DNA of 52,830 bases from Bacteroidia bacterium Ga0077558 (GTDB taxonomy: Bacteria; Bacteroidota; Bacteroidia; Chitinophagales; Chitinophagaceae): the NCBI GenBank assembly GCA_001464625.1, contig LNFJ01000011.1, positions 1 to 52,830 of the forward strand, in the 5' to 3' direction. The notes beneath the pieces are model-generated. The model made no database searches and was not told where the DNA came from. It worked only from the letters and a program-made list of their open reading frames with translations. Below are positions 8,499-14,500 of this stretch, in pieces; the stretch's first letter is position 1, and each line of letters opens with the position of its first letter. The translations under genes were made by a program, and so were the position numbers.

Positions 8499-8571
8499 AT
8501 AGTAGCATTCCGACTGGTCGGATACCCCGTTTGGATCGGGGAGGCTGCAGGTTCGAATCCTGTCTACTATA
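8499..8571 (+). tRNA. tRNA-Pro (TGG)
   Basis: The acceptor ATAGTAG/CTACTAT is fully paired. The anticodon arm is CCCCG-TTTGGAT-CGGGG with anticodon TGG, and the T-arm has loop TTCGAAT. Position 8 is C rather than T and the D-arm TCCG/CGGA is displaced by one base. No CCA is encoded. Confidence 0.85.
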
Positions 8572-8577
8572 CTTTAA

Positions 8578-8649
8578 TGCCGGATAGTGTAATGGTTAAC
8601 ATATCACACTTTGACTGTGATGTTCTCAGTTCGAATCTGAGTCCGGTGA
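8578..8649 (+). tRNA. tRNA-Gln (TTG)
   Basis: The acceptor TGCCGGA/TCCGGTG has wobble pairs at its first two positions. The anticodon arm is TCACA-CTTTGAC-TGTGA with anticodon TTG. The T-arm CTCAG/CTGAG closes TTCGAAT. No CCA is encoded. Confidence 0.88.
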
Positions 8650-8661
8650 CGAGAGATAAAT

Positions 8662-8734
8662 GTTGGCTTTAGCTTAATTGGTAAAGCATCCGTCTGTGCA
8701 ACGGAAGAACAGGGTTCGAACCCCGGAGTCAACC
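8662..8734 (+). tRNA. tRNA-His (GTG)
   Basis: The arm TCCGT-CTGTGCA-ACGGA shows anticodon GTG. The D-arm GCTT/AAGC is good. The gene starts with G and ends in C, compatible with the G-1:C73 pair of tRNA-His. The T-stem has one A-G mismatch, and position 37 is C instead of a purine, so the body is slightly degraded. Confidence 0.75.
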
Positions 8735-8745
8735 AACAAATGAAA

Positions 8746-8861
8746 TGCGGCTTGGTGTAATGGCAACATACTCATCTCCCTTTCTTTCTGAGAGGCAAGT
8801 AGCAGATGATTGTATTCAGCCTGCCTGCCGGCATAGGCAGGTTCAATTCTGAAAGTCGCAC
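8746..8861 (+). tRNA. Interrupted tRNA-like gene with two insertions
   Basis: The acceptor TGCGGCT/AGTCGCA, D-arm GTGT/ACAT and T-arm TTCAG...CTGAA with loop TTCAATT are all intact, but the gene is 116 bases long. A 22-base near-palindrome (8820-8841) sits exactly between the 5' T-stem strand and the T-loop. In the anticodon arm, TCATCT (8772-8777) pairs with AGATGA (8804-8809) around an internal hairpin CCTTT-CTTTCTG-AGAGG whose loop could show TTC (Glu). Equally, a 23-base insertion may interrupt an ordinary anticodon loop that begins CT and ends AG. The identity is therefore unresolved. Confidence 0.6.
8820..8841. repeat. Palindromic repeat inserted in a tRNA T-arm
   Basis: A 22-base element beginning CCTGCCTGCCGGCA and ending TAGGCAGG. 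It is a near copy of the perfect palindrome at 9521-9540, differing by a TA interruption. Removing it restores a normal T-arm (TTCAG, TTCAATT, CTGAA). Confidence 0.8.
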
Positions 8862-8866
8862 AATGA

Positions 8867-8939
8867 TGGCTTATAGTTCAATGGATGAGAACACTTCACT
8901 ACGAATGAAGAAATGAGAGTTCGAATCTTTCTAAGCCAA
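8867..8939 (+). tRNA. tRNA-Arg (ACG)
   Basis: The acceptor TGGCTTA/TAAGCCA and the anticodon arm CTTCA-CTACGAA-TGAAG are perfectly paired, with anticodon ACG. The D-stem is GTTC/GAAC and the T-arm GAGAG/CTTTC has loop TTCGAAT. A34 would be expected to be converted to inosine. Confidence 0.9.
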
Positions 8940-8946
8940 CAGAAAA

Positions 8947-9019
8947 CGGCTTGTAGCTCAACGGTAAGAGCAGGAACCTTATACGTTCAAGGTTAACAGT
9001 TCGAATCTGTTCAGGCCGA
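8947..9019 (+). tRNA. tRNA-Ile (TAT)
   Basis: The acceptor is CGGCTTG/CAGGCCG, the D-arm GCTC/GAGC, and the anticodon arm GGAAC-CTTATAC-GTTCA has one outer G-A mismatch. The anticodon is TAT. The T-arm is AACAG/CTGTT. A TAT anticodon is rare in bacteria, which usually read AUA with lysidine-modified CAU. Confidence 0.82.
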
Positions 9020-9028
9020 CGATAAAAT

Positions 9029-9100
9029 TGCGGTTTGGTGTAATGGTAACACCCCTGTCTCATAAGCAGGATGATGTTGGTTCAAATCCAATGGCCGCAA
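9029..9100 (+). tRNA. tRNA-Met (CAT)
   Basis: The acceptor is TGCGGTT/GGCCGCA, the D-arm GTGT/ACAC, the anticodon arm CCTGT-CTCATAA-GCAGG and the T-arm GTTGG-TTCAAAT-CCAAT. CAT could also serve as an isoleucine tRNA if modified to lysidine. The non-initiator type is inferred. Confidence 0.88.
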
Positions 9101-9105
9101 CAAAT

Positions 9106-9175
9106 GATGACTTAGCTCAATGGTTGAGAGCATTACATACCGTAAAGGTTGATAGTTCGAATCTATCAGTCATCA
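9106..9175 (+). tRNA. tRNA-like gene with collapsed anticodon loop
   Basis: The acceptor GATGACT/AGTCATC, D-arm GCTC/GAGC, variable loop AGGTT and T-arm GATAG/CTATC are perfect. The anticodon arm is only 13 bases, TTAC-ATACC-GTAA, four short of the canonical 17. No 7-base loop with U33 can be drawn, so no anticodon can be assigned. The rest of the body shows no decay, so the RNA could still fold and be charged or sensed without decoding. Confidence 0.7.
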
Positions 9176-9181
9176 CAAGAA

Positions 9182-9253
9182 TGCGATTTAATTCAATGGC
9201 AGAAAACTATCGTTACAAGGTAGTTGTAGTTGGTTCGATTCCAACAGTCGCAA
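9182..9253 (+). tRNA. tRNA-Val (TAC)
   Basis: The acceptor is TGCGATT/AGTCGCA. The anticodon arm CTATC-GTTACAA-GGTAG gives TAC. The T-arm GTTGG/CCAAC has loop TTCGATT. The D-stem is weak, with one A-A mismatch. Confidence 0.85.
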
Positions 9254-9259
9254 CAAAAT

Positions 9260-9333
9260 TGGCTCGTAGCTCAACTGGAAGATGTATCCGGCTTTTAACC
9301 GGAGGGTTGTGAGTTCGAATCTCACCGGGCCAA
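9260..9333 (+). tRNA. tRNA-Lys (TTT)
   Basis: The acceptor is TGGCTCG/CGGGCCA. The anticodon arm TCCGG-CTTTTAA-CCGGA is perfect with anticodon TTT, and so is the T-arm GTGAG/CTCAC. The 3' D-stem strand reads GATG where GAGC would be expected, so the D-arm is weak. Confidence 0.87.
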
Positions 9334-9342
9334 CTCTTATTA

Positions 9343-9416
9343 GTCGTGCTGGCAGACGTGGCTGTATGCACCCGACTGCAAATCGGGAGAAAGAAGTTCG
9401 ATTCTTCTGCACGACT
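9343..9416 (+). tRNA. tRNA-Cys (GCA)
   Basis: The acceptor GTCGTGC/GCACGAC and the anticodon arm CCCGA-CTGCAAA-TCGGG are perfect, with anticodon GCA. The T-arm is AGAAG/CTTCT and the discriminator is T, as usual for Cys. Confidence 0.92.
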
Positions 9417-9420
9417 CATT

Positions 9421-9492
9421 GGATGAATAGCTCAATGGCAGAGCAGTGGTTTGTTAGGCCGCCGGTTGAAAGTTCGAATCTTTCTTCATCCG
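9421..9492 (+). tRNA. tRNA-Asn (GTT)
   Basis: The acceptor is GGATGAA/TTCATCC, the D-arm GCTC/GAGC, the anticodon arm GTGGT-TTGTTAG-GCCGC with anticodon GTT, and the T-arm GAAAG/CTTTC with TTCGAAT. It begins four bases after tRNA-Cys. Confidence 0.92.
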
Positions 9493-9520
9493 CAATGTTT
9501 GTTATAAGTGAATTCGATAA

Positions 9521-9540
9521 CCTGCCTGCCGGCAGGCAGG
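9521..9540. repeat. Perfect palindrome between tRNA-Asn and tRNA-Phe
   Basis: CCTGCCTGCCGGCAGGCAGG is a perfect 20-base palindrome, the complete form of the family also seen at 8176-8190 and inside the tRNA at 8820-8841. The 88-base tRNA-Asn to tRNA-Phe spacer is otherwise featureless. Confidence 0.75.
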
Positions 9541-9580
9541 TGAGGAAATAAAGATCAGTCAATACTTGTCGCAAACAAAT

Positions 9581-9653
9581 GGTGCTTTGGCAGAATGGAT
9601 ATATGCACTGGAGTGAAATCCCAGACATCGTGGTTCAATTCCACGGGGCACCA
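9581..9653 (+). tRNA. tRNA-Phe (GAA)
   Basis: The acceptor is GGTGCTT/GGGCACC. The anticodon arm CTGGA-GTGAAAT-CCCAG gives GAA with one mismatch next to the loop. The T-arm CGTGG/CCACG has loop TTCAATT. It is the last tRNA of the first array, and the YkuK-like gene starts 36 bases later. Confidence 0.87.
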
Positions 9654-9688
9654 CGAAAATGTAATTGAGAAAGTTAAAACGAAAGGCA

Positions 9689-10174
9689 ATGGAACAGCAA
9701 CAACAATGGAGAAAATTAAACGGTGAACGAATCAGCATTCCTATTGCTGAGGAAGTAACGAATGTATTGGTGCGGGAAAGTGAAACAGGACATGAATTAA
9801 AAGTATGCATTGGTACCGATAGCCAGGTAAAAGGGAAGGTTACTGAATTTGCCACCGTAATTGTATTCATCCGCAAAGGGAAAGGTGGTTTCATGTACAT
9901 ACACAATGAAACCACTACACAAAAAATGAGCATAAAGGAACGGATGCTGACTGAAGTTGCAAAAAGTATTGACATCGCTTATACGTTGTGCAATATTTTT
10001 TCCCGCTACAGTGTAGATATGGAAGTACATGCCGACATCAACACAAACCCATCATTCAAAAGTAATGATGCGTTGAAAGAGGCAATAGGCTACATCATGG
10101 GAATGGGTTTTGTGTTTAAAGCAAAACCGGATGCCTTTGCAAGTTCCAGTTGTGCGAATAAAGTGGTACAGTGA
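9689..10174 (+). CDS. YkuK/DUF458-type RNase H-fold protein
   Basis: A protein of 161 residues from the ATG at 9689; an in-frame TTG at 9665 is less likely. VCIGTDSQVKG (Asp44), a central EVAKSIDIAYTL helix region, HADINTNPSFKSNDAL (Asp116) and a final GFVFKAKPDAFASSSCANKV match the pattern of YkuK, an RNase H-like family. Acidic residues at expected first-strand and later positions suggest metal-dependent nuclease chemistry or RNA binding, but no activity of the family is established to my knowledge. It directly follows tRNA-Phe on the same strand and precedes the AAA gene by 43 bases. That position suggests a role in handling tRNA (inference). Confidence 0.8.
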   Translation: MEQQQQWRKLNGERISIPIAEEVTNVLVRESETGHELKVCIGTDSQVKGKVTEFATVIVFIRKGKGGFMYIHNETTTQKMSIKERMLTEVAKSIDIAYTLCNIFSRYSVDMEVHADINTNPSFKSNDALKEAIGYIMGMGFVFKAKPDAFASSSCANKVVQ

Positions 10175-10217: not shown

Positions 10218-11294
10218 ATGGAAAATAGTAATGAACAGAAAGTGATAAACGCAAATGGCATTTTCGAAACTGGCTTTTTGTGTGGAAAATCGCTGTACCT
10301 GTATCGGTTTAATAAAATACCAAGTGCAAATTATATTGGTAATATAGATGGCGAAAAGGCATTCAATGCAGTTAAGCAAAAGTTTGAACACCTGATCTTG
10401 TCAATACATACCTATCGGTATTATGATGCTAAGTTGAAGAAGTATGGATTTGGTGACACTTTTATATTAATGAAGAATGAATGTGTTCTGGAGTTTTATT
10501 GTGGCTATTGTGAAATCTATCATAATGGCTCACAAGATGATTTTATAAATGAATGCACCATTTTGATGAAGGCCTTTAAAGAAAAGCAACGAAGAAAGCC
10601 TTTGGAAATAAACTTGATTAGCAGGGGCAGAAACGGATTTGAGTTTAGCCAGATTGAAGTAAAGCGAACAAAATTAGACCTTGATCTTTTTTATGAGGAC
10701 GACTTTAAAGAAGTGGATGATATCATTTGTAAAAGACTTAAAAACGAGAAGGATAAAGGAATTGTATTGTTACACGGATTACCAGGCACGGGAAAGACAA
10801 CCTATCTGCGCTACCTGATTGGTAAGATCAAGAAAAGAGTTTTGTTTGTATCACCAGGTGTGGCAGGCGAAATTATGAATCCGGATTTTGTTCAATTGCT
10901 GATAAGTAATCCGAATACGGTATTGATTATTGAAGATGCGGAGAACATCATCATGGATAGAAAACATAGCAACAGTTCATCCGTTTCGAACCTGCTTAAT
11001 ATTTCTGATGGGTTATTGGCAGACTTTCTGAATGTGCAATTGATCTGTACGTTCAACAGTTCGCTAACAATGGTGGATAGTGCATTGATGCGTAAAGGAA
11101 GACTGATAGCGAAATATGAGTTTGGCAAGTTGGGAATAGAAAAGTCAAAACGGTTATCAACTCATTTCGGTTTTAACACTGTAATTGACAAACCAATGAC
11201 CATTGCCGAGATTGCTAATCCGCATGAAAAGGAACAACAACCTGTTTCAACACAAGTAATTGGTTTCAGAACGCAGGAAGTGATGATGAATTAA
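10218..11294 (+). CDS. BCS1-like AAA ATPase with unknown N-terminal domain
   Basis: A protein of 358 residues. The C-terminal half is an AAA module: Walker A GLPGTGKTT (187-195, Lys193), Walker B VLIIEDAE (Glu239-Asp240), LLNISDGLL, sensor region CTFN and RKGRL (292-296) with arginine-finger candidates. These are the hallmarks of the BCS1/CDC48-like clade. The first 170 residues match nothing I recognise, and no membrane segment is seen. It probably remodels a protein or ribonucleoprotein substrate. It sits between the YkuK-like gene and the second tRNA cluster. Confidence 0.85.
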   Translation: MENSNEQKVINANGIFETGFLCGKSLYLYRFNKIPSANYIGNIDGEKAFNAVKQKFEHLILSIHTYRYYDAKLKKYGFGDTFILMKNECVLEFYCGYCEIYHNGSQDDFINECTILMKAFKEKQRRKPLEINLISRGRNGFEFSQIEVKRTKLDLDLFYEDDFKEVDDIICKRLKNEKDKGIVLLHGLPGTGKTTYLRYLIGKIKKRVLFVSPGVAGEIMNPDFVQLLISNPNTVLIIEDAENIIMDRKHSNSSSVSNLLNISDGLLADFLNVQLICTFNSSLTMVDSALMRKGRLIAKYEFGKLGIEKSKRLSTHFGFNTVIDKPMTIAEIANPHEKEQQPVSTQVIGFRTQEVMMN

Positions 11295-11340
11295 GTTATT
11301 TAAAATATTGTTGATACGACTGTATTAACAGAAGAAGGTA

Positions 11341-11417
11341 TATGCTTGTTGATAACAAACTAGGTTTATGTTTCAAAGAAGCATAACAGTGCAGAAGTAG
11401 TAACTATCTGTATGCTT
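11341..11417 (+). other. tRNA-like relic with duplicated 5' acceptor strand
   Basis: TATGCTT at 11341-11347 and again at 11411-11417 flank a single AAGCATA at 11379-11385, to which either copy pairs over 7 bases. Each TATGCTT is followed by a similar GTTG sequence, and the second copy leads into a D-loop-like AATGGCA. The layout suggests a tandem duplication of a tRNA 5' end around one 3' end. No T-arm can be drawn. Confidence 0.3.
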
Positions 11418-11446
11418 TTGTTGCAATGGCACATATATTACCAAAC

Positions 11447-11519
11447 GCTGTGTGCAGAGGTTCGACTCCTCTCGGGTTAATAGCCCAGTAGCTCAGGTGG
11501 AAGAGCAGCAGCTCCGTAA
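11447..11519 (+). tRNA. Apparent circularly permuted tRNA X (3' half first)
   Basis: The 3' half comes first: GCTGT (11447-11451), variable GTGC, T-arm AGAGG-TTCGACT-CCTCT and CGGGTTA (11473-11479). After a single A comes the 5' half: TAGCCCA (11481-11487), D-arm GCTC-AGGTGGAA-GAGC and GCAGC (11508-11512), then TCCGTAA. Across the junction the acceptor strands pair at 6 of 7 positions, and GCAGC pairs with GCTGT at all 5 including one wobble. Read in ordinary order, neither half finds its acceptor or anticodon stem. The anticodon is uncertain (CCG or CGT). Confidence 0.5.
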
Positions 11520-11600
11520 GGGTCACAGGTTCGACTCCTGTTTTCGCCAATGGCGAAATAGCTCAGGTGGCTAGAGCACTACACTGATAATGTAGGGTAA
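11520..11600 (+). tRNA. Apparent circularly permuted tRNA-Ile (GAT), tRNA Y
   Basis: The T-arm ACAGG-TTCGACT-CCTGT (11525-11541) and 3' acceptor TTTCGCC (11542-11548) come first. After AAT comes the 5' acceptor GGCGAAA (11552-11558), TA, D-arm GCTC/GAGC and a perfect anticodon arm CTACA-CTGATAA-TGTAG (11579-11595), giving GAT. The acceptor strands match at all 7 positions. The variable loop GGGT occurs at both outer ends, so the break lies in the variable loop. No T-arm follows the 5' part, only the degenerate hairpin AGAAG/CTTCT near 11604-11620. Confidence 0.6.
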
Positions 11601-11620
11601 CAAAGAAGAATGTCACTTCT

Positions 11621-11897
11621 ATAAAAAGGCAGCCAAAAATTAAAGTCAGGTTTATTTGCCTCCTTTATTTTCCCGGTCTTGATCGTGGATAATTAAGGAA
11701 CCAGGTAACTACCTGCAAGAAAAAGAAACGGATAAAGCTTGCATCACTTGTTTGATTATTACTTATAAGAATATTCTGGTAAGAACGATCAATTCAACTG
11801 GTACAAAAAATATCCCGGCAATCTTCTTCCGTATTTGCCCGGTGGCAAATAAAACTGGCTTTATTAAAACAATTGAGAATTTTTAAAAATAGAAGAA
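11621..11897 (+). other. Leader upstream of the slipin gene
   Basis: This stretch has no ORF. It contains a small hairpin CAGGTA/TACCTG near 11703 and a clear one, ATTTGCC-CGGT-GGCAAAT, at about 11833-11850, roughly 48 bases before the slipin start. The second could be an attenuator or a protein-binding element. No convincing promoter was found. Confidence 0.35.
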
Positions 11898-12998
11898 ATG
11901 AAAAAAGTAAAACTAAATGCCTACCAGGTTGGTTTGGTATTTAAAAATGGAGAGTACCAAAAAATGTTGGTAGCCGGAACTTACTGGTTCTGGAAAAATG
12001 AAGAGGTACAAGTGTACGATATCACTAAACAATTTGTCGCACCAATAGAATTAAATATTCTGTTGCAGGATAAAGTGCTGGCAGATATTTTGCAGATCGT
12101 AGAAGTAAAAGACAATGAAATTGCATTGCAATATGAAAACGGTTTGCTGAAGTCTGTAATGACTGCTGGTCGTTATGTATTCTGGAAATCTGTGGTGCAA
12201 CTGGAGTTCATTAAAGCTGATATCAGTAATATTGAAATTGCCGACAACATTGACCGTAGCCTGTTGGCGAAAGCACCTCTAAGTGCATGGGTACGTATGA
12301 ACGAAGTACAGAGCTATGAAAAAGCGTTGCTGTTTGTAGAAGGTAAATATGTAAAACAGTTGGAACCAGGTGCATATTTCTGGTGGAAGAACAGCATTGC
12401 TATTCATATTGGTAAAGTGGATATTCGTCAGCAACAACTGGAAGTAAACGGCCAGGAGATCTTGACCAAAGACAAAGCGGCATTGCGTATCAATGCATGG
12501 GCACAGTATAAAGTAGCCGACATTGAAAAAGCCTTGTTGCAGAACAAAGACTACGATAAGCAATTGTATGTAGCCTTTCAGTTGGCCTTGCGGGAGTATA
12601 TCGCTGGTTTCAGTTTCGATGAATTGCTGGATAAGAAAGAAAGCATTGCTCCATTTATTTTGCAAAGCGTACAACAAAACGCCGAAGCATTGGGTGTGGC
12701 GGTGAGTGATTTCGGTATCCGGGATATTATCTTGCCGGGTGATGTAAAGGAGATCATGAACCAGGTGTTGATTGCCGAAAAGAAAGCACAGGCTAACACT
12801 ATCATGCGTCGGGAGGAAACTGCAAGTACCCGTAGCTTGCTGAACACTGCCAAGTTGATGGAAGATAATGCGATGCTGTGGAAATTGAAAGAGATGGAAT
12901 ATGTAGAAAAGATCGCAGATAAGATCAGCAACATCAGTGTAAGTGGCAACGGTGTGTTGATCGAACAGTTGAAGCAGATCTTTGTGCCGCAGAAATAA
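11898..12998 (+). CDS. Slipin / SPFH (band 7) protein with three N-terminal repeats
   Basis: A protein of 366 residues. Residues 165-300 read as an SPFH domain ending in the slipin-like stretch LGVAVSDFGIRDIILPGDVKEI, followed by a coiled coil (LIAEKKAQANTIMRREETAS onward). There is no N-terminal membrane segment, unlike classical stomatins. Residues 9-34, 73-97 and 140-164 are three repeats of the form A-L-x-F-x-x-G-x-Y...L-x-x-G-x-Y-x-F-W-K. SPFH proteins form ring or cage oligomers. It lies 50 bases upstream of rtcB, and slipin genes are known neighbours of rtcB in several bacteria. Confidence 0.9.
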   Translation: MKKVKLNAYQVGLVFKNGEYQKMLVAGTYWFWKNEEVQVYDITKQFVAPIELNILLQDKVLADILQIVEVKDNEIALQYENGLLKSVMTAGRYVFWKSVVQLEFIKADISNIEIADNIDRSLLAKAPLSAWVRMNEVQSYEKALLFVEGKYVKQLEPGAYFWWKNSIAIHIGKVDIRQQQLEVNGQEILTKDKAALRINAWAQYKVADIEKALLQNKDYDKQLYVAFQLALREYIAGFSFDELLDKKESIAPFILQSVQQNAEALGVAVSDFGIRDIILPGDVKEIMNQVLIAEKKAQANTIMRREETASTRSLLNTAKLMEDNAMLWKLKEMEYVEKIADKISNISVSGNGVLIEQLKQIFVPQK

Positions 12999-13048: not shown

Positions 13049-14500
13049 ATGAGCAAATTAAAAATAACAGGAAAAGAATTAAGAGCTATCGGCTATCCGG
13101 AAGGACCGGTGATTAGCGTAGCCATGAATGTGATGCAGAAAAATTACAAGCATCATGGAAAGGAGGAAGTGATGGAATTATTACAAAAAGTGTTGGCAAG
13201 TCCAATAGAATATATGAATGATGCAATATTGACATTGATAGCAGAACAATTAATACCGAAGCCGCAAACAGATGGAGCAGAAGTATCGTTAAATCAATCA
13301 GGTATTCAATTCAATGTATTCGGACAGGAACATATTGAAGAAGGAGCCATGCACCAGATGTACACTGCAGCAAAATTACCGATTGCAGTGGCTGGAGCAT
13401 TAATGCCCGATGCACATAGCGGTTATGGTTTGCCGATTGGTGGGGTACTGGCAACTGACAATGCCGTTATTCCTTATGGAGTAGGTGTCGATATTGGTTG
13501 CAGAATGTGTTTGAGCATTTTTGATATTGATCCGAAAGAATTGACACAAAGAGAGTCCTATTTCGCAAGGGAGATCAACGAAGCCACATTGTTTGGTAGC
13601 GGTGGCCAGTTTGACCATGCCGCCGATCATGAAGTGATGGAGAGCAAAGCTTTTTATGAAATGCCATTGCTGAAAAATTTGCATGGCCGTGCATGGAAGC
13701 AATTAGGTTCTTCCGGTTCGGGTAATCACTTTGTGGAATTTGGTGTGGTGGAAATTGCGGAGAAGGATGAAGTGTTAGGTGTTGATGCAGGTAACTATGT
13801 GGGATTGTTGTCTCACTCCGGTTCAAGAGCATTGGGAGCAAACATTGCCAATCACTATACAAAAATCGCCATCAGTAAGAGACGTTTGCCACATGATGCA
13901 AAAAATTTGGCGTGGTTAACATTGGATGAAGAAGAAGGAATGGAATATTGGATCGCAATGAACCTGGCGGGTGATTATGCATCTGCTTGTCACCATATCA
14001 TTCATGCAAAAATTGGAAAGCAGTTGGGACGAAAGCCGTTAAAGATGTTAGAGAACCACCACAACTTTGCATGGAAGGAAAAGTGGGAGGGAAAGGAAGT
14101 GATCGTTCACCGTAAAGGTGCAACACCTGCTGGTAAAGATGTATTGGGAATTATTCCGGGCTCCATGACCGCCGATGGATTTATTGTAAAAGGTAAAGGC
14201 GAATTAGCGGCTGTTAATTCTGCATCGCATGGTGCAGGAAGAAAGATGAGTCGTACCAGAGCTATCGCCTCTGTTACCGATAAACAGTTTAAAGACGAAC
14301 TAAAAAAGTTTGGTATAAAACTGTTGGGTGGAGGATTGGATGAATCACCTTTTGCGTACAAGGATATTGCAGTGGTAATGCAATCGCAAAAGCAATTGGT
14401 GGATGTAGTTGGAAAATTCACTCCGAAGATTGTAAAGATGGATGGAGCGAAGCATAGGAGCTGGGGAAAGAAAGGGAAAGAAGAAACAATGGGCGAATAA
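13049..14500 (+). CDS. rtcB: RNA-splicing ligase RtcB
   Basis: RtcB joins RNA ends carrying 2',3'-cyclic phosphate or 3'-phosphate to 5'-OH using GTP and Mn2+. It is the tRNA-splicing ligase of archaea and animals and an RNA repair ligase in bacteria. All key residues appear intact in this 483-residue protein: Cys151 in DIGCRM, His227 in GSGNHFVEFG, His256 in SHSGSR, His337 and His338 in ENHHNF, GSMTADGFIV, and the guanylylated His394 in SHGAGR. No archease or RtcA gene is nearby. It is the last gene of the RNA island and is followed by a strong terminator. Confidence 0.97.
   Translation: MSKLKITGKELRAIGYPEGPVISVAMNVMQKNYKHHGKEEVMELLQKVLASPIEYMNDAILTLIAEQLIPKPQTDGAEVSLNQSGIQFNVFGQEHIEEGAMHQMYTAAKLPIAVAGALMPDAHSGYGLPIGGVLATDNAVIPYGVGVDIGCRMCLSIFDIDPKELTQRESYFAREINEATLFGSGGQFDHAADHEVMESKAFYEMPLLKNLHGRAWKQLGSSGSGNHFVEFGVVEIAEKDEVLGVDAGNYVGLLSHSGSRALGANIANHYTKIAISKRRLPHDAKNLAWLTLDEEEGMEYWIAMNLAGDYASACHHIIHAKIGKQLGRKPLKMLENHHNFAWKEKWEGKEVIVHRKGATPAGKDVLGIIPGSMTADGFIVKGKGELAAVNSASHGAGRKMSRTRAIASVTDKQFKDELKKFGIKLLGGGLDESPFAYKDIAVVMQSQKQLVDVVGKFTPKIVKMDGAKHRSWGKKGKEETMGE

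Follow-up and report, generated by a model that had tools for sequence, protein, structure and literature searches.

In the circularly permuted tRNA genes known from red algae, green algae and archaea, the 3' half comes before the 5' half, with a short intervening sequence, and the accessible part of PMC3978253 describes no bacterial case. The tRNA-like domain of the bacterial RNA YrlA resembles the D, T and acceptor arms of tRNA (PMC8394870), and YrlA occurs in some rtcBA operons (PMC7790460, PMC8394870). In Salmonella, the RtcR-controlled rsr-yrlBA-rtcBA operon is described as being switched on by tRNA fragments (PMC7790460). The TrcR regulon of Anabaena comprises the trn tRNA operon, rtcB, a slipin and an AAA protein and is described as derepressed under translational stress (PMC10272220). 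The locus analyzed here lies in a stretch of 52,830 nucleotides from Bacteroidia bacterium Ga0077558 (contig LNFJ01000011.1), referred to below as the window. It contains the same kinds of parts as the Anabaena regulon, where they lie apart. Like the Salmonella operon, it combines a ligase operon with an RNA that mimics tRNA; unlike that operon, it has slipin, AAA and RNase H-like genes and a tRNA array, and its genome gave no Ro60 match. The features of the locus are listed in Table 1.

Table 1. Features of the slipin/RtcB locus, in positions of the window
Feature	Position	Strand	Evidence
tRNA array, 12 ordinary tRNA genes, locus head	8499..9654	+	ARAGORN 11, Rfam tRNA 12
RNase H-like protein (PF04308)	9665..10174	+	Pfam E 4.7e-37
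AAA ATPase	10218..11294	+	Pfam E 2.4e-10
boxA-like AGTTATTTAAAATA, head of the RNA	11294..11307	+	weak hint
Predicted 5' domain of the large RNA: hairpin 11368-11384, AGTGCA..TGTATGCT stem from 11386	11300..11446	+	alignment A2, consensus fold
Permuted tRNA-like unit 1	11447..11512	+	fold, coordinate mapping; outer stem covariation in 45 units
Permuted tRNA-like unit 2	11525..11595	+	coordinate mapping; YrlA model 35.6 bits at 11517-11584
Hairpin 11604-11620 and possible pseudoknot	11604..11631	+	hairpin in consensus fold
Predicted 3' domain, closing long helix 11642-11660 / 11844-11862	11642..11862	+	consensus fold, two-sided changes
Slipin (Band 7/SPFH), directly 3' of the RNA	11898..12998	+	Pfam E 4.2e-32
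RtcB RNA ligase	13049..14500	+	Pfam E 4.4e-80

The tRNA gene found by Rfam and missed by ARAGORN is at 9106-9175. The array includes a tRNA-Ile(TAT), which is rare in bacteria; it was present in 19 of the 88 slipin loci introduced below, either upstream or downstream of slipin. The defence library yielded nothing beyond one weak match, to the AAA protein (E 0.00063). Among plasmid records, the closest relative of the window's RtcB was an RtcB adjoining prfH (Aureibacter, 49.7%).

A sequence-only reading of this DNA had described two circularly permuted tRNAs next to rtcB, with the T-arm and 3' acceptor strand upstream of the 5' acceptor strand, D-arm and anticodon strand. In both units (11447-11595) the 3' acceptor strand follows the T-arm, and a short loop connects it to the 5' acceptor strand, after which come the D-arm and an anticodon strand; the proposed arrangement was confirmed by the comparison given below. 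Unit 2 is a complete cloverleaf. Its T-arm (11525-11541) is followed by the acceptor hairpin TTTCGCC-AAT-GGCGAAA (11542-11558), with 7 of 7 pairs as claimed, the D-arm (11559-11577) and the anticodon arm CTACA-CTGATAA-TGTAG (11579-11595), which forms 5 of 5 pairs and presents the triplet GAT (Ile); T33 is present in the loop. Unit 1 has no anticodon loop and consists of a T-arm (11456-11472), an acceptor hairpin (11473-11488) and a D-arm (11489-11506), enclosed by an outer anticodon stem. The two strands of this stem, GCTGT (11447-11451) and GCAGC (11508-11512), form 5 of 5 pairs including one G-U, and the pairing noticed earlier for the split stem therefore holds. The 6 of 7 acceptor pairs reported for unit 1 were reproduced in the register with a 1-nt loop only; the tRNA-anchored register has 4 of 7, and the centroid fold has 5 (GGGTT-AAT-AGCCC).

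The centroid fold of unit 1 (11440-11525) is a permuted cloverleaf, and the minimum-energy fold differs from it. Compared with shuffled sequences, the folding energy was no better for unit 1 (z 0.09) and modestly better for unit 2 (z -1.61), where the predicted fold contained the acceptor, D and anticodon hairpins and lacked a standard T-arm. Because folding energy as sole proof was not decisive, the comparison across loci was used. A conventional tRNA gene was rejected, in agreement with the earlier observation that conventional order fails. ARAGORN, applied in conventional order, returned no tRNA at 11447-11595, the Rfam tRNA model scored the units at 24.0 and 25.7 bits (threshold 29), and across loci the acceptor strands paired worse with their conventional partners (3.82 of 7 in 55 unit pairs). 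A model scan for permuted units, which the sequence-only reading had proposed, placed the two units at the top of their own genome with 54.2 and 40.4 bits. The next match, at 32.5 bits, joins two neighbouring ordinary tRNA genes. A search of the same genome for a donor of the units, with 11440-11610 as query, returned only the query itself at E 0.001.

Loci for comparison were gathered through relatives of the adjacent slipin gene. Whole-genome searches covered 97 genomes, 28 of which had any match, and contributed 16 relatives with at least 45% slipin identity; the named loci are the best 80 of 125 slipin relatives. Together with the window's own region, and after removal of nine taken as copies of named loci (L003-L009, L011, L012), this gave 88 upstream regions. 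In a strict scan requiring at least 6 of 7 acceptor pairs, a permuted unit was present in 77 of the 88 (115 units). The same scan found none on the reverse strand (0/88 loci) and none downstream of slipin (0/86 loci), and the mean in shuffled sequence was 0.95. No unit was obtained in 11 of the 88 loci at this level, or in six of them when 5 of 7 pairs were accepted. A T-arm followed by a D-arm was seen in 86 of the 88 upstream regions, giving 159 pairs, some of them due to chance or misread. The permuted order is thus not a product of chance, a conclusion that rests on the comparison and not on energy.

Sister strains in which the acceptor strands drift without compensatory change had been named as grounds for abandoning the permuted reading, and the relatives show compensatory changes. 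Mean acceptor pairing was 5.70 of 7 in 144 units (acceptor loop -3 to 15 nt), compared with 3.60 when the partners were shuffled between loci (maximum 3.94 in 1000 shuffles). These figures indicate that the acceptor strands covary between loci. In alignment A1 the units had been preselected for at least 6 acceptor pairs, so that the 100% pairing there derives partly from selection and is not proof. The outer anticodon stem of unit 1 also covaries, with 4.18 of 5 pairs in 45 units against 2.75 in shuffles (maximum 3.07). The first units are closed by this stem and therefore have no anticodon loop. For 44 second units no outer stem was found (best 2.16, shuffled maximum 2.30). In about 11 loci, mostly from Chitinophaga, no second unit was seen by eye. 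The units could in principle be decaying remnants of tandem tRNA genes, and an ordinary tRNA array does lie 2 kb upstream in the window. This explanation was rejected as extremely improbable, being contradicted by the acceptor covariation: there are compensatory changes and 127 distinct acceptor strand combinations among the 144 units, and the flanking domains are conserved.

According to the alignments, a single conserved structured RNA of ~560 nt fills the space from the AAA gene to the slipin gene, with a predicted core of two circularly permuted YrlA-type tRNA-like modules, each consisting of T-arm, sealed acceptor hairpin and D-arm. Alignment A2 contains 16 leaders over about 600 nt. Its consensus fold has 119 pairs, and at 79 of them both bases are changed in one or more of the 16 sequences. 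Both units are represented in the fold by their T and acceptor hairpins, and unit 2 by its D and anticodon hairpins as well; a conserved 5' stem, one more hairpin and the long helix closing the 3' domain complete it. The D-arm and outer stem of unit 1 are absent from the consensus of these 16 leaders. After unit 2, the hairpin loop at 11611-11614 (TGTC) could pair with 11628-11631 (GGCA). A lenient script found such a partner in 69 of the 88 loci, against a mean of 56.0 (maximum 66) with downstream stretches reassigned. With Watson-Crick pairs only, the figures were 58 loci and 38.9 (maximum 50). A pseudoknot at this place is therefore possible, modestly above the control. The boxA-related motif G[TC]TCTTTAA occurs in 15 of the 88 upstream regions compared with 0.98 in shuffles. 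The window's own site is outside these 15, and its boxA-like pattern has four matches in its own genome and a reversed control two. The recurrence of the related motif is a weak hint of antitermination. Besides YrlA and the sub-threshold tRNA matches, no other Rfam family matched 11290-11900 better than E 0.84, and Rfam has no family for the whole ~560-nt RNA.

One alternative is an autoregulatory leader, in which RtcB, slipin or another tRNA-binding protein would bind the mimic and repress the operon until damaged tRNA draws the protein off. The tRNA-like operator of thrS is the model for such a device. In the window, 35 nt separate the end of the closing helix from the start codon of slipin, and the scan placed units upstream of slipin in 77 of the 88 loci. 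At ~560 nt and with its long-range helices, the RNA would make a large operator, and some loci (e.g. L035) have extra sequence between the RNA and slipin. On balance this explanation is judged quite unlikely.

The best Rfam match in 11290-11900 was YrlA (RF02553), on unit 2, with E 4.4e-6. The two YrlA matches in the window, at 35.6 and 25.9 bits, did not reach the curated threshold of 69. They cover positions 23-88 and 30-81 of the 114 in the model and thus stop at the tRNA-like part. At E 0.01 the two units were the only YrlA matches in their own genome. Alone this result is weak, because sub-threshold YrlA matches were also obtained in 9 of 14 control genomes. YrlA scores in the slipin loci of 17 genomes were 39.3 bits at most; matches in three of them (G004, G008, G042) nominally span the model from 1 to 114, with low scores. 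The reverse search gave stronger support for the link, as judged from sequence: a model made from slipin-linked units found RNAs above the curated YrlA threshold at loci L137 and L145 (genomes G322 and G430). The order T-arm, sealed acceptor, D-arm of the YrlA tRNA-like domain is also the order in the units. The statement of the sequence-only reading that no bacterial case was known is accordingly revised, since the tRNA-like domain of YrlA already has this order with a sealed acceptor.

The unit model R1, built from slipin-linked units, also scores an ordinary T-arm together with the D-arm of the next tRNA, and its matches were therefore checked for acceptor pairing and neighbours. As a detector R1 alone is unsafe; it joins adjacent ordinary tRNAs, and at E 0.001 it matched all 395 genomes of the phylum. 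A unit-model search returned 30 loci, and the script recognized a permuted unit in 21 of these, 14 of which have slipin, including the window. In L137, L144 and L145 the permuted unit lies beside another RtcB, and no slipin was found. L138 has a permuted unit in a genome with Ro60 on the same contig, and L133 has one with Ro60 in the wider flank. L124 and L146 were rejected as permuted loci, being ordinary tRNA arrays. In the remaining nine the script found neither unit nor slipin; one of these, L134, has RtcB nearby, and its wider flank contains two units whose acceptor loops are longer.

No Ro60 match was obtained in 27 of 29 slipin-locus genomes, including the window's own (G000, 93% complete); the two with Ro60 were G047 and G150. 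Ro60 lies close to YrlA-type matches or units in G322, G230, G188 and G150, and none was found in G430. The window RNA was not assigned to the Ro60-bound Y RNAs, given its sub-threshold score and a genome in which no Ro60 was found. By the tests applied the module is YrlA-like, while the RNA as a whole does not appear to be a Y RNA. T-arm, sealed acceptor hairpin, D-arm and, as in unit 1, an outer closing stem are common to both. The differences are that here mostly one or two modules form part of a ~560-nt RNA, where the second module has an anticodon arm to itself, and that the neighbour of the window RNA is slipin. The units are very probably YrlA-type mimics within a structured RNA.

This relationship raises the question of an RNP scaffold, comparable to Y RNA for Ro60, in which the modules would bring in a nuclease or an enzyme of repair and slipin or RtcB would be bound by a different domain. 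The module is the same as in YrlA, and the phylum has loci where a YrlA-type unit occurs together with Ro60 and RtcB (G150) or with Ro60 and the RNase H-like family (L157). The window match stops short of the ends of the Y RNA model, Ro60 was not found in that genome, and we know of no RNA-binding role of slipin. We consider a scaffold fairly unlikely. At L157 (1540-4940), a member of the PF04308 RNase H-like family has Ro60 and a YrlA-type unit as neighbours, which connects both types of locus.

The link to rtcB that had been noticed in the window extends to other loci, with RtcB near 56 of the 88 slipin loci. In the other 32 it was not found, partly since contigs or fetched flanks end. Many of the fetched flanks were short, and all neighbour counts are lower bounds. 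The RNase H-like protein (PF04308) was near at least 49 of the 88 loci and an AAA protein near at least 31; three or more tRNA genes lay upstream in at least 35. More distant slipins have other partners. On a plasmid record from Citrobacter, rtcR is divergent from slipin; the two stretches examined from E. coli showed no rtcR beside slipin. In that species RlaP follows slipin. The E. coli stretch L147 (3899-6785) has slipin and the RlaP nucleotidyltransferase adjoining a zeta toxin family gene on the opposite strand. In Burkholderia cenocepacia (L150, 5001-6197), the RtcB match begins ~180 bp after the slipin homolog match.

None of the distant slipin loci L112-L116 had a complete permuted unit according to the unit script, and Rfam found no YrlA there at E 0.05. 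A stretch of leader plus slipin matched 1624 of 5426 complete E. coli genomes, 1623 of which hold most of the leader; a D-arm is not recognizable in it. When the D-arm requirement was dropped, a T-arm with a 7/7 sealed acceptor was found in E. coli (L112) and Subdoligranulum (L114), a 6/7 acceptor in Citrobacter (L113) and none in L115 and L116. Shuffled sequences did as well in 63 of 2000 cases for E. coli, 30 of 2000 for Subdoligranulum and 386 of 2000 for Citrobacter. The T-arm and sealed acceptor are thus suggestive for E. coli and Subdoligranulum, and not for Citrobacter alone. In Photobacterium (L116, 4665-4802), two tRNA matches in conventional order occupy the place that permuted units take in other slipin loci. 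The distant slipin locus of Burkholderia has one tRNA match.

The anticodon loop of unit 2 was compared across loci. In 64 of the 88, a fully paired anticodon arm (5 of 5) was present at the right distance; the scan behind this count picks the best hairpin at a set distance, and some of its hairpins are wrong. The 64 arms comprise 44 loops with 26 different triplets. Entropy was 1.77, 1.66 and 1.71 bits at positions 34-36, and 0.97, 1.27 and 0.59 at the flanking positions 33, 37 and 38. U33 was kept in 52, R37 in 61 and A38 in 57 of the arms. A single stem can carry many loops: 12 different ones were found on CTACA/TGTAG and 11 on AAGCA/TGCTT. Since the triplet changes while the adjoining loop bases are mostly kept, something probably reads this loop. 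The diversity of triplets could also stem from exchange with tRNA genes plus drift, and the loss of U33 in 12 of 64 arms fits decay as well.

Pairs of closely related loci differ in how the units evolve. The window and L032 have slipin proteins that are 96% identical (gene 92%) and 5' domains that are 94% identical, whereas units 1 and 2 are only 52% and 53% identical; the block of units has therefore been replaced between them. Such replacement does not appear to be general. In L041/L042 (gene 92%, 5' domain 92%) the units are 64% and 91% identical, and in L056/L059 (gene 90%, 5' domain 73%) they are 85% and 78% identical. Over the 120 pairs of the 16 leaders, mean identity was 66.7% for the 5' domain, 60.7% for unit 1 and 52.8% for unit 2.

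The sequence-only reading had taken the units for tRNA genes that need splicing and ligation. In that case the transcript would be cut in the anticodon/variable region, RtcB would circularize it, and the acceptor loop would then be opened by RNase P and a 3' nuclease, with addition of CCA, to yield working tRNAs. Unit 2 is indeed a complete cloverleaf, its anticodon arm recurs in the 64 loci above, and RtcB is encoded next door. An archaeal permuted tRNA is described with an intervening sequence of only 1 nt (PMC3978253), so that a short loop alone does not exclude a permuted tRNA. Against this stand several features of the family. Unit 1, unlike the algal and archaeal genes, lacks an anticodon loop; the acceptor loops measure 2-5 nt in 98 of 159 pairs and 0 nt in eight; U33 is lost in the 12 arms mentioned, and triplets vary on one stem. 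Four of nine class-II-like D-arms are combined with non-leucine triplets (GAA, GAA, CTT, CCT), a second unit is missing by eye from about 11 loci, and no splicing endonuclease was present among the locus proteins searched. Permuted tRNA genes are highly improbable as an explanation, working tRNAs made by RtcB are unlikely, and this part of the earlier reading was not supported. The units probably imitate tRNA and do not work as tRNAs.

As a whole, the locus is best explained, and with some confidence, by a slipin/RtcB-linked structured RNA with YrlA-type tRNA mimics that would serve as bait or sensor. The repair genes that accompany slipin are RtcB, rtcR in Citrobacter and RlaP in E. coli. The RNA would be transcribed together with the slipin-RtcB genes and would act through tRNA mimicry, presenting a tRNA elbow and a changeable anticodon loop to proteins that act on damaged or intact tRNA. 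The crystal structure of YrlA is reported to have no free CCA end. The mimic in the window would have no chargeable end; its tip is sealed, and charging is therefore unlikely. It may act as bait or sensor for an enzyme that damages or repairs RNA, such as an anticodon nuclease or RtcB itself, and damage or titration of the mimic could then alter the expression or activity of the repair genes. Among functions this use is the favoured one, held tentatively. It is supported by the varied triplets with kept R37 and A38, the many loops per stem and the replacement of the units between the window and L032. Counting against a bait, Salmonella YrlA is described as not being cut by an SOS-induced anticodon nuclease (PMC7790460). 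The same source suggests that YrlA might inhibit an anticodon nuclease. A wider scheme is doubtful though possible. In it, large RNAs of bacterial RNA-repair operons would form a family with exchangeable permuted mimics, an arms race with anticodon nucleases would diversify their anticodons, and the slipin-RtcB system would be alerted to tRNA damage when the bait loop is cut or bound.

Among the matches listed from the openly licensed PMC literature, titles and abstract openings contained no description of a slipin-linked permuted tRNA mimic; a prior mention is possible. The finding would extend permuted, end-sealed tRNA mimicry beyond Ro60 systems to the slipin-RtcB repair loci of Bacteroidota. 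In 1623 of the 5426 complete E. coli genomes, slipin is preceded by a leader that may be related, on evidence that is weaker so far. With changeable anticodon loops on a sealed tRNA body, decoy or sensor tRNAs in bacteria become testable, and through the slipin-linked mimic the substrate of bacterial RtcB likewise becomes testable.
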